Positions 2,370-40,216 of a stretch of 64,000 nt of DNA are shown here, in pieces. Under the pieces are notes generated by a model, which was not told the DNA's origin, did not search any database, and saw nothing but the letters and a program-made list of their open reading frames with translations. The stretch comes from an uncultured Lachnospiraceae bacterium (GTDB lineage: Bacteria > Bacillota > Clostridia > Lachnospirales > Lachnospiraceae). The translations under genes were made by a program, and so were the position numbers. Numbering within the stretch: position 1 is the stretch's first letter; each line of letters opens with the position of its first letter. The stretch covers positions 53,320-117,319 of the forward strand of contig CANDAG010000008.1 of the NCBI GenBank assembly GCA_947382625.1. The letters are read 5' to 3'.

Positions 2370-4566
2370 ATACTCCCTTACTGCCGGAGGCAGAGTCAGG
2401 ACCGATGAATACCTCAAATTGGCCGGGCTCGCTGACATAATTCATATGAATGTCATAAAAGCGCAGCATCTCCTCTGTGATCCGGAAGGATACCCTGCGG
2501 CTTTCCCCCGGCTTCAGGGATACCTTACAAAAACCCTTCAGCTCACGGACCGGCCGGGTTACACTTGCGGAAACGTCATGAAGATAAAGCTGGACGGTTT
2601 CTGTGCCCGGCCGGGTTCCCGTATTGGTTACCTCCACAGAAGCGCAGATCCCGTCATCAGGATGCAAAACATCCGAATCGAGGCAGAGCTTTGAATAGGC
2701 AAAGTCAGTGTAGGTCAGGCCATACCCGAAAGGATAAAGGGGTTCGTTGGGCGCATCCAGATATTTGGAGTTGTAACGGGTGGTGCGGTAATCACCTGAA
2801 AAGGGTCTGCCGGTACTCATATGGTTATAATAAATGGGAACCTGTCCCACACAGCGGGGGAAGGACATACTGAGCCTGCCGGAGGGCGATGCGTCCCCGT
2901 AAAGGACTCTGGCAAGGGCGTTGCCCCCTTCAACGCCGGGAAGCCAGGCTTCTAAAATGGCCTTTGCCCTTTGCGCAATCTCGCAGATATCCAGGGGGCG
3001 GCCGTTAAACAGGATCACGCCCACATTGGGATTTACCTCGCATATTTTGTGGAATAATTCCAGCTGGCAGGAGGGCAGTGTGATATGGGTGCGGCTTGCG
3101 CCTTCTCCGGAATAGTCCCGGTGCTCTCCCAGCGCAAGGATGACCCTGTCAGCCTTTCGGGCCAGTTGGATGGCGGTATCTAAGGCGTCCTGAAGGTCAA
3201 AATCCTCTTTTGGAGGAACCTTCTGGAAACCGAGAACCTCTGTGCCGGGATTTACGGTGGGACAGCCCTGTGCAAAAAAGGCGGCGGCCTCCGGATAGCT
3301 TCGGGTCACCCCTTCCTTCAGGGTAACACAGTCCTTATCGTCTCCAAAGAAGGACCAGGAGCCGGACAGCAGCAGGTTATCGGCAAAGGGTCCGATAAAG
3401 GCAACGGATTCCTTTTCTCGGTTTAAAGGAAGAAAACCGTCTTCATTTTTAAGGAGAACGAAGGATTTTTCCGCACAGTCTCGTGCCTGTTGTCTGTGGG
3501 CCGTACAGAGCAGCAGCTTGTTTTCGTCTTCTTCACTGCCGTCCTTATAAGGATTTTCAAAAAGTCCCAGTCTGTTTTTCAGTGTGAGTATGCGCAGCAC
3601 GGCCTCATCGATCAGCCTTTCATCGATCAGCTTCTGTTTCACCATTCCCTTCAGATTTTTTAAGTAAACAGGACTGGCCATGTCAATATCCACGCCGGCG
3701 TTCAGGGCAAGAGCGGCGGCTTCCTTCTCGTCTGCCGCAATGCCGTGGGGGATCAGTTCGCTTACCGCGCACCAGTCGGAGATCAGCACCCCGTCAAACA
3801 GCATTTTATCCCGAAGGATTTCCCGCATGAGATGACGGTTGGCAGTGGAGGGGATCCTGTTCAGGGTATTAAAGGAGGTCATGACCAGGGCACAGCCTGC
3901 ATCGATGGCTTTTTGGTAGGCGGGAAGATAGTCTTCTGTCAGTGTGCGCTCCGATAATTCCACGGTGTTGTAATCCCTGCCCCCTTCAGGCGCGCCGTAT
4001 CCGGCAAAATGCTTCAGGCAGGCGGCAAGGGCTCCTTTCTTTGAAAGATCGTTATCCTCCCCCTGATAGCCCCGTACCATGGCGGCAGCCATCAGGCCGC
4101 TTAGATAAGGATCCTCTCCCGCAGATTCCATAACGCGTCCCCAGCGGGCGTCCCGGACCAGATCGGCCATAGGGGAAAAGGTGACATGGAGGCCTGCTGC
4201 CGCAGCCTCGGAGGCGGCGATGGAAGCGCATTTCTCTGCCAGAGCGGGATCGAAGGTACAGCTCTGGGCAAGGGGGATCGGAAAAACGGTACGGTATCCG
4301 TTGATGATATCGGCCATAAACAGCATGGGGATATGGTGAGGGTGTCTTTGGATATGAGCCTTTTGGATATCCCGGAGCTTCCTTGCACCGATGACGGAAA
4401 GACAGCTTCCGCAAACCCGAAGCTCCTCCGGGGTGATCCCCATTTCCACGGCAGGGCCCGTCACCATATCATTGTTAAAAAAGTAAGAGGGGATCTGAAA
4501 GAGTTCCCCTGTTTTTTCATCCAGTGACATATCTGAGAGTAAAGACATTAATTTCTGCTGTTCCAT
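2344..4566 (-). CDS. GH3 family beta-glucosidase/beta-xylosidase (BglX-like)
   Basis: This is a full-length GH3 enzyme of 740 residues removing terminal beta-linked glucose or xylose from oligosaccharides. The N-terminal TIM-barrel contains KHF (about 185-187) and the nucleophile Asp in LISDW (about D264). The alpha/beta sandwich follows (LALGEHRDYSGEG region), then a C-terminal fibronectin III-like domain (about residue 640 onward). There is no signal peptide. AGGAGG lies 7 nt before the ATG. It is transcribed convergently with the GH5-like gene and in the same direction as, and downstream of, the GH120 gene, so GH120-GH3 probably form one minus-strand operon. GH3 specificity (glucosidase, xylosidase or dual) is not decided by sequence; the GH120 neighbour favours xylo-oligosaccharides. 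Confidence 0.93.
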   Translation of the reverse strand: MEQQKLMSLLSDMSLDEKTGELFQIPSYFFNNDMVTGPAVEMGITPEELRVCGSCLSVIGARKLRDIQKAHIQRHPHHIPMLFMADIINGYRTVFPIPLAQSCTFDPALAEKCASIAASEAAAAGLHVTFSPMADLVRDARWGRVMESAGEDPYLSGLMAAAMVRGYQGEDNDLSKKGALAACLKHFAGYGAPEGGRDYNTVELSERTLTEDYLPAYQKAIDAGCALVMTSFNTLNRIPSTANRHLMREILRDKMLFDGVLISDWCAVSELIPHGIAADEKEAAALALNAGVDIDMASPVYLKNLKGMVKQKLIDERLIDEAVLRILTLKNRLGLFENPYKDGSEEDENKLLLCTAHRQQARDCAEKSFVLLKNEDGFLPLNREKESVAFIGPFADNLLLSGSWSFFGDDKDCVTLKEGVTRSYPEAAAFFAQGCPTVNPGTEVLGFQKVPPKEDFDLQDALDTAIQLARKADRVILALGEHRDYSGEGASRTHITLPSCQLELFHKICEVNPNVGVILFNGRPLDICEIAQRAKAILEAWLPGVEGGNALARVLYGDASPSGRLSMSFPRCVGQVPIYYNHMSTGRPFSGDYRTTRYNSKYLDAPNEPLYPFGYGLTYTDFAYSKLCLDSDVLHPDDGICASVEVTNTGTRPGTETVQLYLHDVSASVTRPVRELKGFCKVSLKPGESRRVSFRITEEMLRFYDIHMNYVSEPGQFEVFIGPDSASGSKGVFTLVQSDT

Positions 4567-11890: not shown

Positions 11891-14152
11891 ATGAACGGAT
11901 TACAGAGAAAGATCACAGAGAATAAACACCTGAATCGGATTATTTTTACCTCAACTGCGACTCTGGCGGTGATTGTGCTGCTGCTGACACATATCCTGTC
12001 CTCTCACTATGAGACTATGGCGTGTGAGGAAATCTACCGGAACGCCAGCAGCAGTATCAACCAGACCACCAGCGCAGTGCGGTTTTTGTCTGAATCCGTA
12101 AACAGCCTGCTGCTGCAGTGTGCCCAGAACCCGGAGGTCAACAGGCTTTTTCTGACACAGAGCTACAGCGGGACGGAGCTTTACAATATCAAGCGGGAGC
12201 TGGATAGCATTCGCTACAATAATTCCAAGATTTATTCTATTTATGTGTATGATAAATACGAAAAGGTCATTTATGAATCAGGCGAATTCCCGCAGGGCTT
12301 TGTATGTCCGGTTGGAGATTTCTATGATACCGGGTTTACAGAATATCTGGACAGGCTGGGTTCCGTGAAGGTATTTACGCCTGTTGTCAGGACGGTGCCG
12401 GTGATCCGCAGCAATGCGCCGGAATCCTCCATTAAGGTGCTTACCTACTTTTATTTCGAGCCTTATTTCGGGGAGGAAAAGAACACGGTTCTGGCCTTCA
12501 ATGTGGATATGAACTGGATGCGGGATGCCCTGGGCTATTTCAACGGAGCCAACCCTGGCGGGAATGATATTGAGATCGTGAGCAGGGACGGGACAGTGAT
12601 CTTCTCCGCCAGGGAAGCTCAGATCGGGATGCCTTATGAGGACGCGGCGGTGCTTGATGAGATCAGAAACGCGGAGGAGGAATATGGCTATTTCGTAATG
12701 GACGGCGCTAAGAGGCTGATCTCCTATTCTAATTCCGATCAGACGGGCTATGAGGACTGGATCTTTATTTCCGGCAGCGACCTGGAGCAGGTGTTGAAGC
12801 CGATCCGGGAGGTCAAGCATTTTGTGTATCTGTTTACGGGAATCCTTCTGCTTGTCAGTATCATAGGGCTCGGAGGGATCCTGCTGCACTTGGGCACGCC
12901 CATCAGGCAGGCCTTTCATAAGGCGAAGCTGTTAGATACGGCTCAGGAGGAAAAACGCAGGCGGGAGGCGTCGGAATATATCAAGCTGCTTTTGGTGGGC
13001 GACACGGATGAGAATACCAGCCAGATTCGGGAAAAGTTTGAACAGCTGCATATTACCTATGATTTCGCGGCGGAGAACCGGCTGATCCTGATTTCCATGG
13101 ATGACAGGAACAGCCTTCGGCGAAAATTCCGGAGCAGTTATCCCCAGGTGGTGCAGAAGATCAACCGCAGGCTGGAGGAGGTTTTCGGACGGTACTATGA
13201 AAATCCCATCCGGGTGGACTGGCAGGATGGGATCGCATTGATGATCGTCTGCTTTCAGGATATGGATGAAGCGGCGCAAAGGGCCAGGCTGCAGAAGATT
13301 TTTGAGGAAATCACGGATGCGCTGCAGCAGGAGGTACAGTGCGGCGTCAGCTTTTGCTTAAGCAGTACGGGACAGTCCATCAAGGATCTTTCATTCCTTC
13401 TGGCGGAGGCGCTGGAGGTCCATACCTATCGCTATTTATACGGCTATGGGCAGCTTTTGACAAACGACCTGCTCAGGGATCAGGAAGAAACCGCCTATGT
13501 GTATCCCAAGGATCAGGAGAAGGAAATCCTGTCTGCGGTGTTTGCAGGAAAGGATGGGGAAGCGCTTTCGGCCTACGAGAAGTATGTGGAGATGCTCTAC
13601 CCCATGACGGTGCCTGAGATCAAGATTTCCTTTTTGCTGCTGGCGGATGCGATCAAGTACGCCTCCCGCAATACGGTGGCGGAAACCTCCAATGTACTTC
13701 TGAACTTTGAGCACTTTTTTGCCAAGATCCAGTCTCTGGAAACCATCGAGGAGGTGAATCATCTGTTCACCAATCTGTTCCGTGAGATCGGAGAGATGGT
13801 CAGGGAACAGAAGAGCGCCCGGTACACAGAGCTGATCGAGCAGGTGGAGCGGTATGTGGGCGAGCATTACGGAAAGGTGGATCTGTCCATTCAGGAAATT
13901 GCAGAGAGCATGGATATGTCGGGAGCGTATCTGGGAAGGATTTTTAAACAGCATACGGATATGCCGTTTACGGAGTACCTGACCCGGCACCGGCTTAAGG
14001 TGGCGTGCGAAGAGCTACTTGGCAGCGAAAAAACCGTGAATGAGATTTCGGACAGCATCGGATTTACCAACAGCTCCTATTTTTATCTGGTATTTAAAAA
14101 ATATCTGAACTGTACGCCCACACAATACCGGAAGAACGGAGCAGAACAGTGA
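11891..14152 (+). CDS. Membrane-anchored AraC-family regulator (YesN-like sensor)
   Basis: One transmembrane helix (ATLAVIVLLLTHIL, about residues 20-38) is followed by an extracellular sensor of about 270 residues (Cache-like), a second helix (VYLFTGILLLVSIIGLGGIL) and a cytoplasmic part ending in a two-HTH AraC domain (IQEIAESMDMSGAYLGRIF and INEISDSIGFTNSSYFYLVF-like region near the C-terminus). Such proteins sense extracellular glycans or binding proteins and activate adjacent sugar genes. The start at 11891 fits the GAGGA at 11876-11880; the ATG at 11882 is too close. It lies between the redox genes and the glucuronate operon and probably controls one or both. Confidence 0.88.
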   Translation: MNGLQRKITENKHLNRIIFTSTATLAVIVLLLTHILSSHYETMACEEIYRNASSSINQTTSAVRFLSESVNSLLLQCAQNPEVNRLFLTQSYSGTELYNIKRELDSIRYNNSKIYSIYVYDKYEKVIYESGEFPQGFVCPVGDFYDTGFTEYLDRLGSVKVFTPVVRTVPVIRSNAPESSIKVLTYFYFEPYFGEEKNTVLAFNVDMNWMRDALGYFNGANPGGNDIEIVSRDGTVIFSAREAQIGMPYEDAAVLDEIRNAEEEYGYFVMDGAKRLISYSNSDQTGYEDWIFISGSDLEQVLKPIREVKHFVYLFTGILLLVSIIGLGGILLHLGTPIRQAFHKAKLLDTAQEEKRRREASEYIKLLLVGDTDENTSQIREKFEQLHITYDFAAENRLILISMDDRNSLRRKFRSSYPQVVQKINRRLEEVFGRYYENPIRVDWQDGIALMIVCFQDMDEAAQRARLQKIFEEITDALQQEVQCGVSFCLSSTGQSIKDLSFLLAEALEVHTYRYLYGYGQLLTNDLLRDQEETAYVYPKDQEKEILSAVFAGKDGEALSAYEKYVEMLYPMTVPEIKISFLLLADAIKYASRNTVAETSNVLLNFEHFFAKIQSLETIEEVNHLFTNLFREIGEMVREQKSARYTELIEQVERYVGEHYGKVDLSIQEIAESMDMSGAYLGRIFKQHTDMPFTEYLTRHRLKVACEELLGSEKTVNEISDSIGFTNSSYFYLVFKKYLNCTPTQYRKNGAEQ

Positions 14153-33221: not shown

Positions 33222-34049
33222 TTATAAAGAATTCCGGTATTCCAAAGGCGTCATGCCCAGAACCTCCTGAAAAATCCGGTTGAAGCTCCGCTGGCTGTTA
33301 AAGCCTGCGTTTTCCCACACGCTGGTCAGGGGCTCTCTGGTGGAACGGATCAGCTGCAGGGCGTGTTCTAATCGGATCCGGTTTAAGTATTGCCGGAAAT
33401 TCATGTGCAGACGTTTGGAAAAAATGTGGGAAAGATAGTATTTGTTCACGTGAAGCTCCTTTGCGAGCAGGTCGAGAGTCAGGGGCTCCCGGAAATGCTC
33501 CATGATATAATGCACCAGGCGGTAAGTAAGATCCATGCTTTCCGCCTGGTTTTTTTGCAGGGATAAAAGGGGTACAGTGTTTGCCAGCAAAACCTGAACC
33601 CAGGCAAAGGAAAGGGCGTGATGATCCGGCATCACAGAGCTTTGTCTGTGCTCTGCCCCAGTGGGAAAACCGCCGGGAAGGCAGGAAATTTCATGCAACC
33701 GTTCAAAAGCCAGAGCCGCATCCTTATGCAGCTCACCAGCGGACAAAAAAGGATTCTTCGGGCTGTATTCCTGCAGAGACCGCAGATAGGGACCTGCCAG
33801 AGAATCACCGAAGATCAGCAGCCATCCCAGGCTCTCTTCCAGAGAGCGATAGCTGTGTATTTCCTGTGGAAAAATGACAGTACAGTCTCCTTTTTCCAGT
33901 TCTCTGGATCTGTCCATTATATTTACCAGAATACGTCCTTCCCGCACAAACAAAATTTCTGTATGACTGTGCAGATGCTCCGGAAACTCCAGATTCCGGG
34001 AGGGGAAAATTTGCAGAGCGCTTTCTTTGTTTTCATAAAAGGGATGCAT
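33222..34049 (-). CDS. AraC-family transcriptional regulator with cupin sensor domain
   Basis: The N-terminal cupin domain (FPEHLHSHTEILFVREGR, with metal/sugar-site histidines) is joined to a C-terminal AraC DNA-binding domain with two helix-turn-helix units (LDLLAKELHVNKYYLSHIF and the TSVWENAGFNSQRSFNRIF unit). Started at 34049, where GAAGAGG lies upstream, it has 275 residues; the longer frame from 34124 adds 25 residues lacking family character. It is divergent from the ThuA-Gfo/Idh operon and is the likely local regulator of it, or of the upstream glycosidase genes. Confidence 0.9.
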   Translation of the reverse strand: MHPFYENKESALQIFPSRNLEFPEHLHSHTEILFVREGRILVNIMDRSRELEKGDCTVIFPQEIHSYRSLEESLGWLLIFGDSLAGPYLRSLQEYSPKNPFLSAGELHKDAALAFERLHEISCLPGGFPTGAEHRQSSVMPDHHALSFAWVQVLLANTVPLLSLQKNQAESMDLTYRLVHYIMEHFREPLTLDLLAKELHVNKYYLSHIFSKRLHMNFRQYLNRIRLEHALQLIRSTREPLTSVWENAGFNSQRSFNRIFQEVLGMTPLEYRNSL

Positions 34050-34166
34050 ACCTAAAACCTCTTCAATATAGCAATTTTTGGCTACAATTTCAGGTGATAT
34101 GACAATCATTATAGCCCATGCCATGCTATGATGTAAATATCAGAAGGAACTTCCGTGGAATAATCT

Positions 34167-34206
34167 GTAACTGTTCAGTCAATAAAGCCAAAGGCTGAAT
34201 CATTAC
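34167..34206. repeat. Imperfect palindrome of the GTAACTRTTCAG family
   Basis: GTAACTGTTCAG (34167-34178) pairs imperfectly with CTGAATCATTAC ending at 34206. Related motifs recur at 37164-37305, 45809-45835 and 52637-52650. It lies upstream of the AraC gene and the ThuA operon, where it could also act as a regulatory hairpin. Confidence 0.5.
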
Positions 34207-34263
34207 AATTATCCTGCAGGATGATCCGGAAAATATATCAAACGAAGAAGGAGAGGGTTACAA

Positions 34264-34995
34264 ATGGAACGGGAAAGAAAAGTACTGATTTTTCAGGGAG
34301 GCTGGGACGGCCATGAGCCCGCGCAGGTAGCGGCCAGATTTGCCGGGATTATGGAAGCGCATGGATATGTCTGTGAAATTCATGACAATCAGGAAGTGTT
34401 ACTTGACAGAGAGCATCTGATGGAGATGGATTTGATCGTACCCTGCTGGACTATGGGAAGTATTTCTCAGGAGGCCAGGGAAAATATTGTGAAGGCAGTG
34501 GCCGCAGGCTGCGGATTGGCAGGCTGTCATGGCGGTATGTGCGATGCCTTCCGTGAGGACGTGGAATGGCAGTTTATGACCGGCGGCCAGTGGGTCAGCC
34601 ATCCGGGCGGAGACGGAGTGCGTTACCAGGTAAATATCCACCATGGCTCCAGCCCCATCGTAGAGGGACTGGAGGATTTCGAGGTCTGCAGTGAGCATTA
34701 TTATCTGCATGTGGACCCTGCGGTTGAGGTTTTGGCTACCACCAGGTTTCCTGTAGTGCCTTACTACCATATTTCCAACAAGCAGGTGGATATGCCGGTG
34801 GCATGGACCAAGTTCTGGGGAAACGGCAGAGTTTTTTATAATTCTCTTGGACATCACGATGATGTGTTTGAGAAATTCCCACAGGCGCAGAAGCTGATGG
34901 AGCGCGGTATGTGCTGGGCAGCAGAGGGGAAACGGTATGCGCTGGAGCACGGATTGACCACAGAGAGGTTTGAAAATACGGCGAAGATGTATTAA
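34264..34995 (+). CDS. ThuA-like (trehalose utilisation) domain protein
   Basis: A 243-residue protein of the ThuA family, which has a class I glutamine-amidotransferase-like fold. Visible features are the N-terminal KVLIFQGGWDGHEP, LAGCHGGMCDAF at the nucleophile-elbow-like position and GNGRVFYNSLGHHDDVF near the C-terminus. ThuA proteins occur in sugar operons with Gfo/Idh/MocA oxidoreductases and are linked to 3-keto-disaccharide metabolism, but their catalytic role is unclear. It starts after GAAGGAGAGGG and is 15 nt upstream of a Gfo/Idh/MocA gene, which supports a shared pathway. Confidence 0.88.
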   Translation: MERERKVLIFQGGWDGHEPAQVAARFAGIMEAHGYVCEIHDNQEVLLDREHLMEMDLIVPCWTMGSISQEARENIVKAVAAGCGLAGCHGGMCDAFREDVEWQFMTGGQWVSHPGGDGVRYQVNIHHGSSPIVEGLEDFEVCSEHYYLHVDPAVEVLATTRFPVVPYYHISNKQVDMPVAWTKFWGNGRVFYNSLGHHDDVFEKFPQAQKLMERGMCWAAEGKRYALEHGLTTERFENTAKMY

Positions 34996-35010
34996 GCGAG
35001 GAGAAACCAT

Positions 35011-36120
35011 ATGGAAAAAGTGAAAGTTGGTATTTTAGGGTTAGGCGCCATCAGCGGCATCTACCTGAAAAACCTCACGGAATTATTTAAAGAGGTAGAA
35101 GTGGAAGGGATTTATGATCTGATCCCGGAAAAGATGGAAGCGGCAAAAAAGGAATACGGAATCAGCAAAACCTATTCTTCTATGGAAGAGCTTCTGAAAG
35201 ATCCGGCAATCGAGATCGTATTGAATCTCACAAGACCCTTTGAGCATTATGATACTACCAAAGCGGCGTTACTGGCAGGAAAGCATGTGTACAGTGAAAA
35301 GCCTCTGGCGGCAACCTATGAGGAGGGAAAAGAGCTTGTCCGGCTGGCCGGAGAGAAGGGACTGCTTTTAGGCGGAGCACCAGACACCTTCTTGGGAGCA
35401 GGGATACAGACCTGTCGGAAGCTGATCGATGACGGCTTTATCGGACGTCCCATCGGCGGATGTGCCAGAATGATCTGCCATGGGCATGAAAGCTGGCATC
35501 CTGCACCGGAATTTTATTATCAGTATGGCGGCGGCCCTATGATGGATATGGGACCCTATTATCTGACCGCACTGGTCAATATGCTTGGCAGGGTGCAGGG
35601 GCTGACGGGAATCACCTCTAAAAGCTTTGAAACCCGTACCGTTACCAGTAAGCCTCACTATGGACAGCGGGTGCAGGTGGAGGTTCCCACCCATGTGAAC
35701 GGAATCCTGCAGTTTGAGGAAGGGGCAGTGGTTACCATCACCACAACCTTTGACGTGTATTATGACAATTCTGCCTGTCTTGAAATTTATGGCACGAAGG
35801 GAACCCTTAAGGTGCCTGATCCCAATGGATTCGGAGGCCCGGTATTATTACTCCGTCCGGAAGAGGGCGTTTTCAGGGAGATTCCTCTGATCTTTGATTA
35901 CAAAGAAAACAGCCGCGGGCTGGGAGTGGCGGATATGGCGAAAGCCCTGCGCACCGGCAGAGGCTTAAGGGCAGATGTCAGGCAGACCCTGCATGTGCTG
36001 GAGATCATGACTGCCTTTGAAAAGAGTAGCCAGGAAGGAAAGCTCATCATGCTTGAGAGTCCGTATCAGCGTGAGGTGGCTATGCAGGATGAGGGGATCA
36101 CTGGGATTCTGAGCCTATAA
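35011..36120 (+). CDS. Gfo/Idh/MocA family oxidoreductase
   Basis: An NAD(P)-dependent sugar oxidoreductase of 369 residues. The Rossmann start is KVGILGLGAISGIYLKNL; the catalytic Lys is in VYSEKPLAATYEEG; the C-terminal alpha/beta domain binds the sugar. It probably oxidises or reduces a hydroxyl of a sugar or polyol in concert with the ThuA-like protein. GAGGAGAAACC precedes the ATG. A strong terminator follows 30 bp after the stop. Its last codons (AMQDEGITGIL) recur in DNA at about 37566-37601. Confidence 0.92.
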   Translation: MEKVKVGILGLGAISGIYLKNLTELFKEVEVEGIYDLIPEKMEAAKKEYGISKTYSSMEELLKDPAIEIVLNLTRPFEHYDTTKAALLAGKHVYSEKPLAATYEEGKELVRLAGEKGLLLGGAPDTFLGAGIQTCRKLIDDGFIGRPIGGCARMICHGHESWHPAPEFYYQYGGGPMMDMGPYYLTALVNMLGRVQGLTGITSKSFETRTVTSKPHYGQRVQVEVPTHVNGILQFEEGAVVTITTTFDVYYDNSACLEIYGTKGTLKVPDPNGFGGPVLLLRPEEGVFREIPLIFDYKENSRGLGVADMAKALRTGRGLRADVRQTLHVLEIMTAFEKSSQEGKLIMLESPYQREVAMQDEGITGILSL

Positions 36121-36149
36121 AAATCATCCATTTTTGGAGCAAGGGGTGC

Positions 36150-36197
36150 AAGGGATAAGCCAAAGGACAGCTATAACGGTTTGGCTTATCCCTTTTT
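36150..36197 (+). terminator. Rho-independent terminator closing the ThuA-Gfo/Idh operon
   Basis: AAGGGATAAGCCAAA (36150-36164) is perfectly complementary to TTTGGCTTATCCCTT (36180-36194), followed by a T-run. It marks the right end of the glycan locus; beyond it the sequence becomes AT-rich. The remaining bases to 36361 show nothing I can call coding. Confidence 0.92.
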
Positions 36198-36361
36198 GGG
36201 AGAAGCACCAACGGAAAGAACATGAATGAAAGGACGGCAATGCCGTTATCGGAAGAAGCGTGCCGTCTACTCAGATGACCTCTGGCGCAGGAAGCTCCGT
36301 TGCCAGTGCAGATATTTCCCCAAGAACATCGCCTTGCAGAGTTCGGCTTTTTTGATATGAA

Positions 36362-36919
36362 TTAATTCCTAATAGTCTTTTCCTCAATAAATTTATCATG
36401 TATTTGTTCAAGTAATGAGAAATCAACGGTGCTTTTTAGGTATCCGATAGCAGAGCTGTTTCCCTTTTTCTGTTTATAAAGTATTTTGGCATTCTGGATG
36501 ATCCTATTTTTATTTTTACGGATAAAAAGCATTTCCTTATGTATTAGTGATTTGTAGAATAAGTCGGGTTCCTGTTCCATATCATATAGGGTTAATTCCG
36601 ATGCAGGAACAGGAATCATATTGTTTAGTTTTAAAGTTCCCTTTAATTCCAGTTCTCCAGATGAGGATTGGGAAGTGATGCGGATGATAGGAATGATACT
36701 TCTGCGGATTTCCCGTATTCCGTTTTCCATCCGATAATCAGAACTTTTTGGAGAGGAAAGGGGAATGTAATAGTTATACCCATTAATGCTGTATACAATG
36801 CCCAGATATTTCCTTGTATGGTTCCGGTCATTTTCTTTTGTGGAAAAAACATTTTTCTCAACGGTACTGATATACGAAATGTATTCCTCGGATATTTCAT
36901 ATAATTCTAATTTATTCAT
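36362..36919 (-). CDS. toxN: ToxN/AbiQ-family endoribonuclease toxin of a type III toxin-antitoxin system
   Basis: A 185-residue protein with the ToxN/AbiQ pattern: an N-terminal LYEISEEYISYI strand-helix, YLGIVYSINGYNYYIPLSSPK (the SSPK at residues 55-58 matches the TSPK/SSPK active-site motif of ToxN), then LNNMIPVPASELTLYDM, the helix SLIHKEMLFIRKNKNRI and VDFSLLEQIHDKFIEE. Such toxins are endoRNases held in check by the repeat RNA they process, and several give phage abortive infection. The start at 36919 follows GCAGGAGATACC; an in-frame ATG at 36934 lies upstream of that site. Its immediate upstream DNA holds a terminator, three repeats and a consensus promoter, the standard architecture. 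Confidence 0.9.
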   Translation of the reverse strand: MNKLELYEISEEYISYISTVEKNVFSTKENDRNHTRKYLGIVYSINGYNYYIPLSSPKSSDYRMENGIREIRRSIIPIIRITSQSSSGELELKGTLKLNNMIPVPASELTLYDMEQEPDLFYKSLIHKEMLFIRKNKNRIIQNAKILYKQKKGNSSAIGYLKSTVDFSLLEQIHDKFIEEKTIRN

Positions 36920-36932
36920 TGGTATCTCCTGC

Positions 36933-36961
36933 AAAGAAAAGGGCGATCATAGCGATCACCC
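36933..36961 (-). terminator. Attenuating terminator between antitoxin repeats and toxin
   Basis: On the minus strand GGGTGATC and GATCGCCC pair around a GCTAT loop (one G-T wobble), followed by TTTTCTTT. It ends 13 nt before the toxin start codon. In type III systems this leaky terminator sets an excess of antitoxin RNA over toxin mRNA. Confidence 0.88.
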
Positions 36962-36964
36962 TTC

Positions 36965-37100
36965 GATTTTAAAGTTTCCCACTGTCTGGCAGGGAATCTC
37001 CTGATTAATAAAGTTTTCCACTATTTGGCAGGAACTCTCCTGAATATAAAGCTTTCCACTATCTGGTAGGAACTCACCTGATGATGGTTTCCCATCTCTG
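36965..37100 (-). ncRNA. toxI: Type III antitoxin RNA: three 38-39 nt repeats plus a partial copy
   Basis: Three head-to-tail repeats occupy 36965-37002 (38 nt), 37003-37041 (39 nt) and 37042-37079 (38 nt), with a partial fourth copy reaching about 37100. On the RNA strand each begins AGGWGA and contains CUNCCAGAYAGUGG or a close variant. A short stem is supported by a compensatory change: UUCCC/GGGAA in the toxin-proximal unit is UUCC with a U-A pair in the other two. These should be processed by the toxin into pseudoknotted antitoxin units. The RNA would start near 37099. Confidence 0.87.
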
Positions 37101-37105
37101 ATATT

Positions 37106-37134
37106 ATTATACGTTTTTGTGAGAATTATGTCAA
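37106..37134 (-). promoter_or_regulatory. Consensus sigma-A promoter of the toxin-antitoxin module
   Basis: On the minus strand a perfect TTGACA (plus 37129-37134) and a perfect TATAAT (plus 37106-37111) are separated by exactly 17 nt. Transcription should start near 37099, at the beginning of the antitoxin repeats. Confidence 0.92.
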
Positions 37135-37155
37135 TAAACACGCAAAATCTCATAA

Positions 37156-37313
37156 TGAAATTTGTAACTATTCAGCCGTCGGCTTCATAGTTACTGAATC
37201 TGCCCATTTAAAATCGCCTTCGGCGAGGGGCAGATTCACTCTCGGCTAAATCCACGCATTCTCACGGACTTTGCAGCAAGTGCAAAGTCCTGGCTGAATA
37301 GTTACTGAAATTT
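37156..37313. mobile_element. 142-bp MITE-like element with 14-bp inverted ends and 8-bp target duplication
   Basis: GTAACTATTCAGCC (37164-37177) is the exact reverse complement of GGCTGAATAGTTAC (37292-37305). Immediately outside both ends is the same octamer TGAAATTT (37156-37163 and 37306-37313). Inside are two strong hairpins: TCGCC/GGCGA nested in ATCTGCCC/GGGGCAGAT, and GGACTTTGCA/TGCAAAGTCC. There is no coding sequence. GTAA termini with 8-bp duplications are characteristic of IS66-family transposition, so an IS66-like transposase could have moved it; that link is inference. Confidence 0.82.
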
Positions 37314-37410
37314 GTCTATTCTTACTGTTCAGCTACGAGAAATTAAGAAAGCATTTCAATCAATTTTTTCAGCCTGATTTATATTGTATTATAATGTATT
37401 TTAGGTTTTT

Positions 37411-37605
37411 TTGTCCTCATTCCACGTTGGTCGGCACAGAACAGATGTCTATCGGACATCTTGTTTTAATTATGATAATATTAAAAATGTTAAGGCGTAT
37501 AACTCAGGTTACAGAGTGGGTTTACTATACAAAGAGGATGAATCAGACTCAGTGGGAAAGCTTAAGGCTATGCAGGACGAGGGGATTGCCGGGATTCTGG
37601 ATTAA
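37411..37605 (+). pseudogene. Small ORF or gene remnant ending like the upstream Gfo/Idh/MocA gene
   Basis: A 64-codon frame with no good ribosome site ends in KAMQDEGIAGILD, nearly the same as the last residues of the oxidoreductase ending at 36120 (AMQDEGITGILSL). At DNA level about 33 bases match with roughly four differences. The rest (FNYDNIKNVKAYNSGYRVG) is not recognised. It is most simply a remnant of a related gene's 3' end. Confidence 0.4.
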
Positions 37606-37629
37606 AGGGTTCCAGTGAAGCTGAGATGC

Positions 37630-37659
37630 AAATGGCTATGCGGAAATGCGTAGCCATTT
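37630..37659. terminator. Bidirectional hairpin, probable terminator of the minus-strand accessory operon
   Basis: AAATGGCTATGCG and TGCGTAGCCATTT (37630-37642 and 37647-37659) form a near-perfect stem with a GAAA loop, 15 bp beyond the DUF1349 stop. The T-run is short (TTTGC on the minus strand), so efficiency is uncertain. Confidence 0.5.
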
Positions 37660-37673
37660 CATCTGTGCTAAAT

Positions 37674-38285
37674 TTATTCCTTATCCGGCTGCTGCCCGTC
37701 ATGCGCCAGCCATTTGCACTCTGTCATATCCATATGTGTAAATGTTGCCTTAAAGGATGAATCCTCCGGACTGCAGGCATATACGCCAAAACAAATATCA
37801 TTGATTGCATCCCACATATGGCATACCCGCATTTGTGAAAAATGAGTTCCGTCTTCAGAGCACTCAATACAGAAATCATCTTCCCTGCGGCTTAGGCGAT
37901 ACCACATAGATTTAACGGCAGCAGGAATTTCTGTGGTTGCCCAGTCGGAATATCCATGATTCGTAACCACACTGCCGAGATGCTGAAAATCATTGTTCTC
38001 ATATTCGATAGAACCTTTTAACCAATTATCACTGTCAAGATACATCACGACACCGCATTGGTCAAAACGATGTTTACTTTCAAACTCTGTTTTAACCGTG
38101 AAAGAAAAATACTTTTCAGATGTACGCATTTGTAATACAGGTGCATTGTCATTCCTGAAATGATAATATGTCCTCTGCCACAGATCTGTATGAGGGTTTG
38201 TGATGATTTCAATTTTATCTTTACTTATGGTATAAGCCTGCGGTTCTCTTGTCCATATAAGATTTTTTGTATCAAATTTTATCAT
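37674..38285 (-). CDS. DUF1349 domain protein (concanavalin-like lectin fold)
   Basis: A 203-residue single-domain protein. DUF1349 proteins have a concanavalin-A-like beta-sandwich and no proven enzyme activity. Family features visible are the LIWTREP start, FRNDNAPVLQM, DQCGVVMYLDSDNWLKGSIEYE and GVYACSPEDSSFKATFTHM. The start at 38285 follows AAGGAGGCTGACAAT; an upstream in-frame ATG at 38306 is less well placed. It is the last gene of a minus-strand accessory group (NUDIX, kinase-like, methyltransferase, UvrA-like). Carbohydrate binding is possible but not shown. Confidence 0.88.
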   Translation of the reverse strand: MIKFDTKNLIWTREPQAYTISKDKIEIITNPHTDLWQRTYYHFRNDNAPVLQMRTSEKYFSFTVKTEFESKHRFDQCGVVMYLDSDNWLKGSIEYENNDFQHLGSVVTNHGYSDWATTEIPAAVKSMWYRLSRREDDFCIECSEDGTHFSQMRVCHMWDAINDICFGVYACSPEDSSFKATFTHMDMTECKWLAHDGQQPDKE

Positions 38286-38319
38286 ATTGTCAGCCTCCTT
38301 AAGCAATTTATAAGTGTTC

Positions 38320-38769
38320 TCATTTTATAATCACATTCCATTTACTATTTTCAATTACATATTGAAATTCCGTTAAATTATCATCTTCCATTACTCGAAG
38401 AAGTGGTAATAAGTCATCTACGATATTCATTTTTGGCAGTTCTGACTTTTTTACCCAAACCATCTCCCCCTCTTCTGATGATGTTACTTCTCCAAAAAAC
38501 TCGTCTGTATGAAATAAAAATACAATGTACCGTCCATTCTCTATGGGAAATTGCTTGATTCCGCATAATCTTGGATTTTGAATATCAAGCCCCGTTTCCT
38601 CTTTCATTTCCCGAATAACAGCATCTATAATGGATTCGTTTTTTTCGATATGTCCTCCGGGTAAAGTTAAACCTTTCCAATCATCTTTTAATCTGTTTTG
38701 TAAAAGGTATTTATCTTTTTGATGGATCAGACATAAAACTGTTAATTCGACATTTTCTGTTCTCTGCAT
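38320..38769 (-). CDS. NUDIX hydrolase (MutT-like)
   Basis: A 149-residue protein with an intact Nudix box, GGHIEKNESIIDAV followed by REMKEETGLDI (pattern GX5EX7REUXEEXGU), which binds Mg2+ and cleaves nucleoside diphosphate-X compounds such as oxidised dNTPs. GGAGGC lies 8 nt before the ATG, and the site overlaps the stop of a HAD-hydrolase remnant upstream. Substrate is not predictable. Confidence 0.92.
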   Translation of the reverse strand: MQRTENVELTVLCLIHQKDKYLLQNRLKDDWKGLTLPGGHIEKNESIIDAVIREMKEETGLDIQNPRLCGIKQFPIENGRYIVFLFHTDEFFGEVTSSEEGEMVWVKKSELPKMNIVDDLLPLLRVMEDDNLTEFQYVIENSKWNVIIK

Positions 38770-38772
38770 ACG

Positions 38773-38955
38773 CTATGCCTCCATATACCGCGCTATTTCA
38801 CTCCAAGTGGTTATGGTCAGAATATTTTTATCTTTTGTATATGGCAGATCAATTGCCCCCATGTACCATACCGGCAGCAGTCCCGCATTTAAGGAACCTT
38901 TCACATCGCATTCGTACTGATCACCGATATACCAGACATCCTCCGGCTGTTTTCT
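38773..38955 (-). pseudogene. C-terminal remnant of a HAD-family hydrolase
   Basis: Reading the minus strand, the frame gives QPEDVWYIGDQYECDVKG then a LPVWYM segment and a TAG at 38773-38775. This is the GDxxxxD motif and tail of HAD-IA phosphatases. A TAA lies three codons upstream of the conserved part and no catalytic DxD half exists, so about three-quarters of the gene is lost. The kinase-like gene ends immediately upstream, which suggests a deletion junction. Confidence 0.75.
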
Positions 38956-38958
38956 TAA

Positions 38959-39537
38959 TTATGGAAGATGGAAGCCCTGCAAAAAATGGCGGAATATCTG
39001 CTCCCTGTCTCTTGCAGTCTCAAAATACGGCAAGCCGTATTTTTGACACTGTTCTTTCATGCAAATGCTTTGCTCAACAATATACACTGCACCCTCTTGA
39101 AGTTCTTCATCCGATTTATAAAAGGTATAATCTTTTTCGGTATCATATCTCTTTTGGATGGCAAACCGCTCTGCCGGTGTTACGTCCGATGTAATCAGAT
39201 AGACAATTTCGCAATTGGCACCATGAATATATTTCATATAATCCTCCGGCAAAAGCTGATAGATATCCAGTACCATGCCGGGGCGAAACTCATCGTATTC
39301 GCCGCTGTCCAGCATTGCCCGGATAAAAGGCGCCATCTTGCCGCTGATTAATTTTAAAGTATCCATAGAGGACAATCCGGCATAAGTATTCACCCCTGTT
39401 TCGGGGAAACACTTCTCAAATCCTGCTATAATCGAATCCATACTGATATGCTGATACCCGTACTGATCTGCCAGCCGGTGAGAAATTGTACTTTTCCCGG
39501 CTCTTGGAACCCCTGCAATAATAATATTGTTTTTCAT
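38959..39537 (-). CDS. P-loop ATPase/kinase-like protein
   Basis: A 192-residue P-loop NTPase with Walker A IAGVPRAGKSTIS at the N-terminus and an acidic ISMDSIIAGF segment like the DE/DS region of small-molecule kinases. No lid signature identifies a substrate. It starts 4 nt after the stop of the methyltransferase gene (GGAGATG site), so the two are coupled. Its stop lies 4 bp from the HAD remnant. Possible roles are nucleotide or small-molecule phosphorylation. Confidence 0.82.
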   Translation of the reverse strand: MKNNIIIAGVPRAGKSTISHRLADQYGYQHISMDSIIAGFEKCFPETGVNTYAGLSSMDTLKLISGKMAPFIRAMLDSGEYDEFRPGMVLDIYQLLPEDYMKYIHGANCEIVYLITSDVTPAERFAIQKRYDTEKDYTFYKSDEELQEGAVYIVEQSICMKEQCQKYGLPYFETARDREQIFRHFLQGFHLP

Positions 39538-39541
39538 TTTA

Positions 39542-40216
39542 TCATCTCCGTGCTTTTTTTAATATGGCAAACATGAGTGAATCAAAATCCGGCAACGCGG
39601 ATGTAATGCCTTTTTCTACTATTTCCAAATGATTTGAAGTGATTTCCTTCTCAAAAGTTGAAAAAGACACTTTTCTACAGGATGTCCCGGTCACCATTAT
39701 TTTACCCGATTCATGGTTCCTTTCAAAAAGCTTAAATGCATCGTTAATATCACTTTGTGTTTCTTCTTCACCATCACCCATAGTGCAGATCAGTGCAATT
39801 CCATTCTCTGTCAAATGCTCATAAAAAAATCTGTAGAAGGCATTTCTGTCATCATTCAATACAAGCATATGGATAACTGCGATAGAGTAGATGAAATCAT
39901 ATTGACCTTCATGACTATCATTGATGCAGTCCAAAACTTCAAAACTACTTTTATAGGAAGGCATCTTCTTTTGGCAATACGCTATAGCTTCTTCAGATAT
40001 ATCCGTGGCAAGAAGTTTATATCCGTTATCCAATACAGCTTTTGCATCTCTCCCTTCACCGCAACCAATCTCAAGAATTGGATTTTTTTGATCCAACCTG
40101 TATTTTTTTATGGTATTTAATACAATGGGAGAATTCCGGTCACTTAGCCAGCTCACTCCCTTCGCATGAGCGATTTTATATCTGTCATCATAGGCTTCAT
40201 AATATTTTTTTGCCAT
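39542..40216 (-). CDS. Class I SAM-dependent methyltransferase
   Basis: A 224-residue Rossmann-fold methyltransferase. Motif I is ILEIGCGEGRDAKAVL, motif II has the acidic LLATDISEEAI, and the DFIYSIAVIHML segment is the post-II motif. The start at 40216 follows GGGAGAGATAG; an in-frame ATG at 40246 would add 10 residues. Acceptor unknown. It lies between the kinase-like gene and the UvrA-like gene in the minus-strand accessory group. Confidence 0.88.
   Translation of the reverse strand: MAKKYYEAYDDRYKIAHAKGVSWLSDRNSPIVLNTIKKYRLDQKNPILEIGCGEGRDAKAVLDNGYKLLATDISEEAIAYCQKKMPSYKSSFEVLDCINDSHEGQYDFIYSIAVIHMLVLNDDRNAFYRFFYEHLTENGIALICTMGDGEEETQSDINDAFKLFERNHESGKIMVTGTSCRKVSFSTFEKEITSNHLEIVEKGITSALPDFDSLMFAILKKARR

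Follow-up and report, generated by a model that had tools for sequence, protein, structure and literature searches.

Among described type III toxin-antitoxin systems, the closest counterparts of the locus studied here are ToxIN of Pectobacterium atrosepticum (Pa) and Escherichia coli (PDB 2XD0/2XDB/2XDD, 7D8O) and AbiQ/antiQ of Lactococcus lactis (PDB 4GLK). The published ToxI repeat units are 34–36 nt long (PMC5086642). In the five E. coli ToxI clusters the conserved bases are the two middle G-C pairs of stem 1 (S1), G5, A6, U12, A19, A20, G21 and U22, with A19 reported as conserved among these clusters and not as family-defining (PMC8860590). Processing of the antitoxin RNA, ring formation and neutralisation of the toxin are treated in PMC5086642 (sections 2–5 and 7), PMC5772629 and PMC8860590, and the roles of the active-site residues in PMC5086642 (sections 4–5) and PMC8860590; AbiQ carries Ser51 where ToxN has a threonine (PMC5086642). 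CptIN, with a CptI unit of 45 nt, has been found in E. rectale, R. torques and C. catus, and the E. rectale system is described as having stabilised plasmids and as not having aborted phage infection in E. coli (PMC4627078).

In the present study, we analysed a locus within a 64-kb stretch of DNA of an uncultured Lachnospiraceae bacterium (hereafter the window). The locus is almost certainly a chromosomal ToxIN, i.e. a type III toxin-antitoxin system of the ToxN/AbiQ family, which would work as its relatives do. Judged by its sequence, it is well formed and probably active, and it looks like a new example of the known ToxIN family rather than a new type. Matches in Pfam, PADLOC and the PDB, the ToxI pattern and the pair changes support the original prediction in so far as it proposed a complete module of type III and of the ToxN/AbiQ kind.

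Organisation of the module and the toxin

The module occupies positions 36362–37134 of the minus strand, where a promoter, a leader hairpin, three repeats, a terminator, an AGGAG sequence and the toxin gene follow one another (Table 1). The order of promoter, array, terminator and toxin is the same as in the P. atrosepticum and E. coli systems. This is the only ToxN locus in the 4.18-Mb genome to which the window belongs.

Table 1. Coordinates of the features of the ToxIN module in the window.
Feature	Position	Strand	Details
Sigma-70-type promoter	37106..37134	-	TTGACA 37134-37129, 17-nt spacer, TATAAT 37111-37106
5' leader hairpin GAUGG-GAAA-CCAUC	37083..37096	-	folding and recurrence in relatives
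ToxI unit 1, 38 nt	37044..37081	-	core A1 = 37079; U4-A13
ToxI unit 2, 39 nt	37005..37043	-	core A1 = 37041; A4 opposite G13
ToxI unit 3, 38 nt	36967..37004	-	core A1 = 37002; C9-G25 replacing U9-A25
Intrinsic terminator between antitoxin and toxin	36931..36964	-	stem 36938-36964, T-rich tract
AGGAG ribosome-binding site of toxin gene	36926..36930	-	read directly from sequence
toxN-family toxin gene, 185 aa	36362..36919	-	ATG start; endoribonuclease by homology

The perfect TTGACA-17-TATAAT promoter of the original prediction was found with all 12 of its 12 bases, and it is the single exact match on both strands of the window (0.02 expected); looser promoter-like sites in the region are not in excess (6 vs 4.0 in shuffles). 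The promoter is also present 5' of the arrays of relatives, and transcription would start near position 37099.

The stretch between the transcription start and the first repeat had been taken for a fourth, partial copy of the repeat, but is better read as a leader hairpin. The 22-nt leader, with borders set by eye, folds to -8.0 kcal/mol, as low as none of 200 shuffles keeping only single-base composition. Among 30 loci examined, a leader hairpin was found in eight near-identical loci (the window, L002, L004, L006, L012, L015, L017, L023) and in eight further ones (L027, L028, L032, L033, L035, L037, L046, L055), being built of other letters in L046, L027/L028, L032 and L055. The hairpin of L059 is weak (50 of 200 shuffles as low), and the remaining 13 loci have no hairpin or too short a leader, including L024, the Lactococcus plasmid locus L057 and the E. 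coli plasmid locus L056, which leaves no room for one. Because the hairpin recurs in some loci and is absent from others, we regard it as a common but optional trait, and a partial fourth ToxI unit was rejected.

The predicted terminator between array and toxin was recognised as a hairpin of -16.6 kcal/mol (z = -4.68; a stability reached by none of 200 shuffles) with a T-rich tract after it; a simple consensus scan did not list it. Six distinct chosen sequences, that of the window included, paired in 66 of 66 cells, with weak covariation (one double change, as in 88 of 500 shuffles).

Profile searches placed the toxin in the ToxN/AbiQ family, as originally predicted. It matches Pfam ToxN_toxin with E = 2e-38 (132.5 bits, cut-off 25) over residues 4–176 and profile positions 1–158 of 159, and the PADLOC AbiQ model with 3.2e-40; the one NCBIfam match was far below its cut-off (17.8 vs 586 bits). 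In the PDB, phmmer retrieved E. coli ToxN 7d8o (1.4e-17), Pa ToxN 2xd0, Bt ToxN 4ato and AbiQ 4glk, and a profile of 14 toxin sequences retrieved the same four chains and nothing further up to E = 10, no CptN chain being among the matches. An alternative TTG start, 15 bases upstream of the ATG, would give a protein of 190 aa.

The SSPK motif, also foreseen in the original prediction, comprises residues 55–58. In the alignment, S55-S56-P57-K58 correspond to T52-S53-P54-K55 of ToxN and R36 to K33, a conservative replacement; equivalents of the active-site residues K33, T52, S53 and K55 are present (R36, S55, S56, K58). Tyr29 of ToxN Pa is replaced by R32, and this position is likewise not Tyr in L057 and in the Sutcliffiella plasmid ToxIN (L059). 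The SSPK motif and the match to the AbiQ model are shared with AbiQ/antiQ and L057. Of the four plasmid and phage references aligned, ToxN of Fusobacterium phage phiFN37 (L058) is the most similar (43% identity), followed by the toxins of L057 (34%), L059 (31%) and L056 (29%).

The antitoxin array and its fold

The three tandem repeats of 38–39 nt described in the original prediction were confirmed (38, 39 and 38 nt). Over 36 aligned nt (36969–37004, 37008–37043 and 37046–37081; spacing 39 and 38), two of the copies show 83% and 89% identity to the reference copy. The units are slightly longer than the published ones, compared with 36 nt in ToxI Pa and 35 nt in antiQ; their number is close to that of antiQ (2.8 copies), whereas 5.5 are reported for Pa (PMC5086642) and 4.6 for E. 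coli cluster 1 (PMC8860590).

In the published ToxI numbering, which the E. coli plasmid array L056 fits, each window unit carries G2-C15, G3-C14, G5, A6, U12, A20, G21 and U22, i.e. 10 of the 11 bases conserved in E. coli ToxI. The exception is A19, the base of the A-minor contact, which is U, U and C in the three units and is present in L024. A pattern of the other ten bases at fixed spacing, A19 being omitted for its mismatch, was found at three places in the window, each within the array, with 0.08 occurrences expected from dinucleotide shuffles (three reached in none of 100). Across 321,507 bases of locus sequence, in which some places are represented more than once, the matches listed fall in arrays. 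The pattern does not extend to the whole family: it is matched by two units of L056 and one of the three of L057, by none of L058, L059 (whose repeat is similar by eye) and L025, and, among the 29 loci L027–L055, only in L045, L046 and L054.

The window core aligns gap-free to the ToxI of L056 and to the core of one L057 unit. Together with the 10 conserved bases, this speaks against the earlier suggestion that the repeat matches no known unit and may represent an undescribed subtype, which was consequently discarded. The plain identity of the window cores to the E. coli unit (15–18 of 26) is no better than chance, as the best chance match in the window, at 12435, also reaches 18; the unit therefore could not be recognised in the original prediction. 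In Rfam, no match to 36200–37500 exceeded the gathering score (best E = 1.3). Searching the literature in full text for segments of the unit, written as DNA and as RNA, returned two papers that appear unrelated, judging by the title and the opening of the abstract, and as figures and supplements, the home of ToxI alignments, are unreadable to such a search, absence from print is not claimed.

The original prediction had named the H-type pseudoknot as the fold to look for. We aligned 19 distinct units picked by eye, 17 of them of this lineage (the three of the window, the remainder from L002, L003, L004, L014, L017, L019, L020, L021, L023, L024 and L046), one from E. coli (L056) and one from Lactococcus (L057). 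All 76 cells of stem 2 (positions 8–11 with 23–26) pair, and three of its four pairs are doubly changed. The whole pseudoknot has nine doubly changed cells compared with a shuffle mean of 2.0 (none of 500 shuffles as high), figures that are not probabilities because related sequences are counted. When the 3' partners were slid, the paired cells fell from 80% to 30–58%, although a slide of +3 columns still gave three doubly changed pairs (five cells) with 31% of cells paired. Thus, in these 19 units, S2 of an H-type pseudoknot is kept through compensatory change. In stem 1, the two middle G-C pairs are kept in all 19 units and are the only pairs in 14; position 4-13 is U-A in five units and non-standard (A opposite G) in the other 14, and position 1-16 forms a standard pair in two.

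Compared with units 1 and 2, unit 3 carries U9C and A25G, an exchange known as a compensatory pair from phage pseudo-ToxI (PMC3475682). The stem-keeping replacement of C-G by U-A noticed originally is therefore real, at positions 9/25, and fits the pseudoknot stem better than the simple hairpin. Both the S2 pairing and the 9-25 exchange are shared with the P. atrosepticum and E. coli systems. Differences from these systems are the replaced A19 and, in most of the units, A4 opposite G13.

That the repeats are simple nested hairpins (CAGGA-GAGU-UCCUG) and not pseudoknots is hardly credible. This hairpin is the favoured fold of unit 2 and pairs in 83% of cells, but the program that prefers it cannot form pseudoknots, the full hairpin is not kept in units 1 and 3, and none of its pairs is doubly changed in the 19 distinct units, as opposed to four pairs of the pseudoknot; the zero double changes led us to reject the model. 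Nested folding of single units was not better than that of shuffles (138, 32 and 40 of 200 as stable), which is expected of a pseudoknot, yet lends it no support. It is very unlikely that the ToxI of this lineage has two states, with A4/G13 weakening stem 1 and, together with U9, completing the hairpin CAGGA/UCCUG, so that the RNA would refold on demand. The U-A form is present in unit 1 of the window and the switchable one in unit 2; since unit 1 also has the A/G form in most relatives, the odds of such a switch are slightly lowered. If true, it would be a folding switch within a type III antitoxin.

A system of the CptIN or TenpIN type is most unlikely; its RNA fold would be that of a different type III family and, in CptIN, two toxins would form the ring. 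The gene order is identical and CptIN occurs in the three species named above (PMC4627078), but the array carries the ToxI bases, its unit of 38/39 nt differs from the 45 nt of CptI (PMC4627078), and the PDB profile search up to E = 10 yielded ToxN/AbiQ chains only. CptIN was rejected on the lack of a CptN chain in that search, and the label "CptIN-like" of the original prediction is not supported. It also seems unlikely that the locus is a decayed or silent copy, inactive in this genome although its parts are present. Shifted or shortened toxin frames in six of 20 array-bearing relatives and a MITE-like element 30 bases upstream of the -35 box would fit such decay; against it, all parts in the window are whole (promoter 12/12, open frame of 185 codons, SSPK, ribosome-binding site, terminator).

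Relatives, distribution and apparent movement of the module

Twenty-five related genome loci were collected by protein; several have flanks in common and so do not count as independent, and errors are possible in draft assemblies. Twenty of them carry two or three pattern units. In 13 of these 20 (L002–L012, L014, L024) the toxin is uninterrupted; six (L015, L017, L018, L020, L021, L023) have a shifted or shortened frame, and in L019 the contig ends within the toxin. None of the 25 loci shows a complete toxin that lacks an array, and loss of the toxin with retention of the array is what a harmful toxin predicts. Five loci lack pattern units. The match in L016 sits at the edge of a contig, L022 and L026 contain fragments of the toxin, and L025 encodes a complete toxin of 173 aa and has a different array of three units. 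The fifth is L013, whose toxin frame is open from residue 12 (around base 3001), the array, the promoter and the first 11 codons being replaced by other sequence. In L003 (bases 1–197 and 339–1103), a partial module (last unit to toxin residue 39) lies just 5' of the complete one, which probably reflects a tandem duplication.

When positions 34001–40000 were compared, relatives spanning the module matched the window from 37138–37164 to 36333–36384. Past these edges, only a dispersed repeat of ~60 bases (36250–36312) matched L002, L004, L007 and L018. L004 and L007 carry a serine recombinase gene (Resolvase and Recombinase domains) downstream, and L002, L006, L008 and L018 share 700–1200 bases of the downstream DNA of L004/L007. 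The ~0.78-kb module appears to move between genomic places. An empty site corresponding to 35500–38400 was found in none of 37 genomes of the genus (own included; at most eight candidates scored per genome), where the matches outside the module were confined to fragments of the flanks and to dispersed repeats. The region 36113–36340, downstream of the toxin, is a dispersed repeat with matches of 73–91% in several genomes of the genus.

PF13958 was matched at E <= 0.001 in 25 of 60 related genomes (own included), in 24 of them above the cut-off, and the window toxin at E <= 1e-30 in five of 299 genomes of the family, again including its own. One scan of viral contigs revealed no relative; two of 50,697 phage records gave a distant match, and 147 of 72,556 plasmid records matched, all with less than 60% identity.

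In a tree of 29 toxins, drawn without support values, the window toxin groups with L004, L012, L014 and L045, then with L024, L025, L046 and L083. L031, L032, L037 and L041, for which the motif filter found no frame, were dropped from this tree, which also leaves out L029, L044, L048–L050, L052 and L054.

Several loci of the same genus have one ToxI-like unit only (L034, L036, L038, L039, L040, L051, L053, L055 and, by eye, L048 and L049), with a second hairpin-like stretch between this unit and the terminator. In the tree, the first eight of these loci have toxins that cluster together with that of L035, a locus judged by eye to have two units. An antitoxin of one unit would be worth attention because antitoxicity required 2.5 units in ToxI Pa and 1.8 in antiQ (PMC5086642).

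Proposed mode of action and neighbouring DNA

Transcription from the promoter would yield mostly antitoxin RNA, with occasional read-through of the terminator into toxN. The A/U-rich tails of the precursor (UUUAUAU, UUUAUUAA, UUUAAAA) may be where ToxN cuts, a guess based on the A-rich specificity of its relatives. Each freed pseudoknot would then bridge two ToxN active sites to give a closed, inactive ring, probably a 3:3 triangle. If phage infection or the loss of the locus reduced the supply of antitoxin, ToxN would be free to cleave A-rich RNAs, and growth would stop. For processing, ring formation, neutralisation and growth arrest alike, we infer the same course as in ToxIN Pa, Bt and Ec and in AbiQ, and a role in phage defence is plausible.

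The locus leaves the known working of type III systems unchanged. Through it, the ToxIN family gains a Lachnospiraceae lineage with about twenty near relatives that allow the toxin, the array, the leader hairpin and the terminator to be compared, and its natural compensatory changes support the ToxI pseudoknot beyond the solved examples.

The MITE-like element upstream of the promoter is 142 bp long (37164–37305), bounded by perfect terminal inverted repeats of 14 bp (GTAACTATTCAGCC) and flanked by an 8-bp direct repeat, TGAAATTT (37156–37163 and 37306–37313). It has at least 42 matches in the genome of the window (40 of 78 candidates scored), and at least 22 copies besides itself are nearly full-length, with 83–99% identity. 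A similar element was seen by eye 5' of another ToxIN locus, L048. Further upstream, positions 37565–37606 (plus strand) encode AMQDEGIAGILD, which resembles the C-terminal residues (AMQDEGITGILSL) encoded by the GFO/IDH oxidoreductase gene at 35011–36120 and is perhaps the remnant of a second copy of this gene on the opposite side of the ToxIN module.
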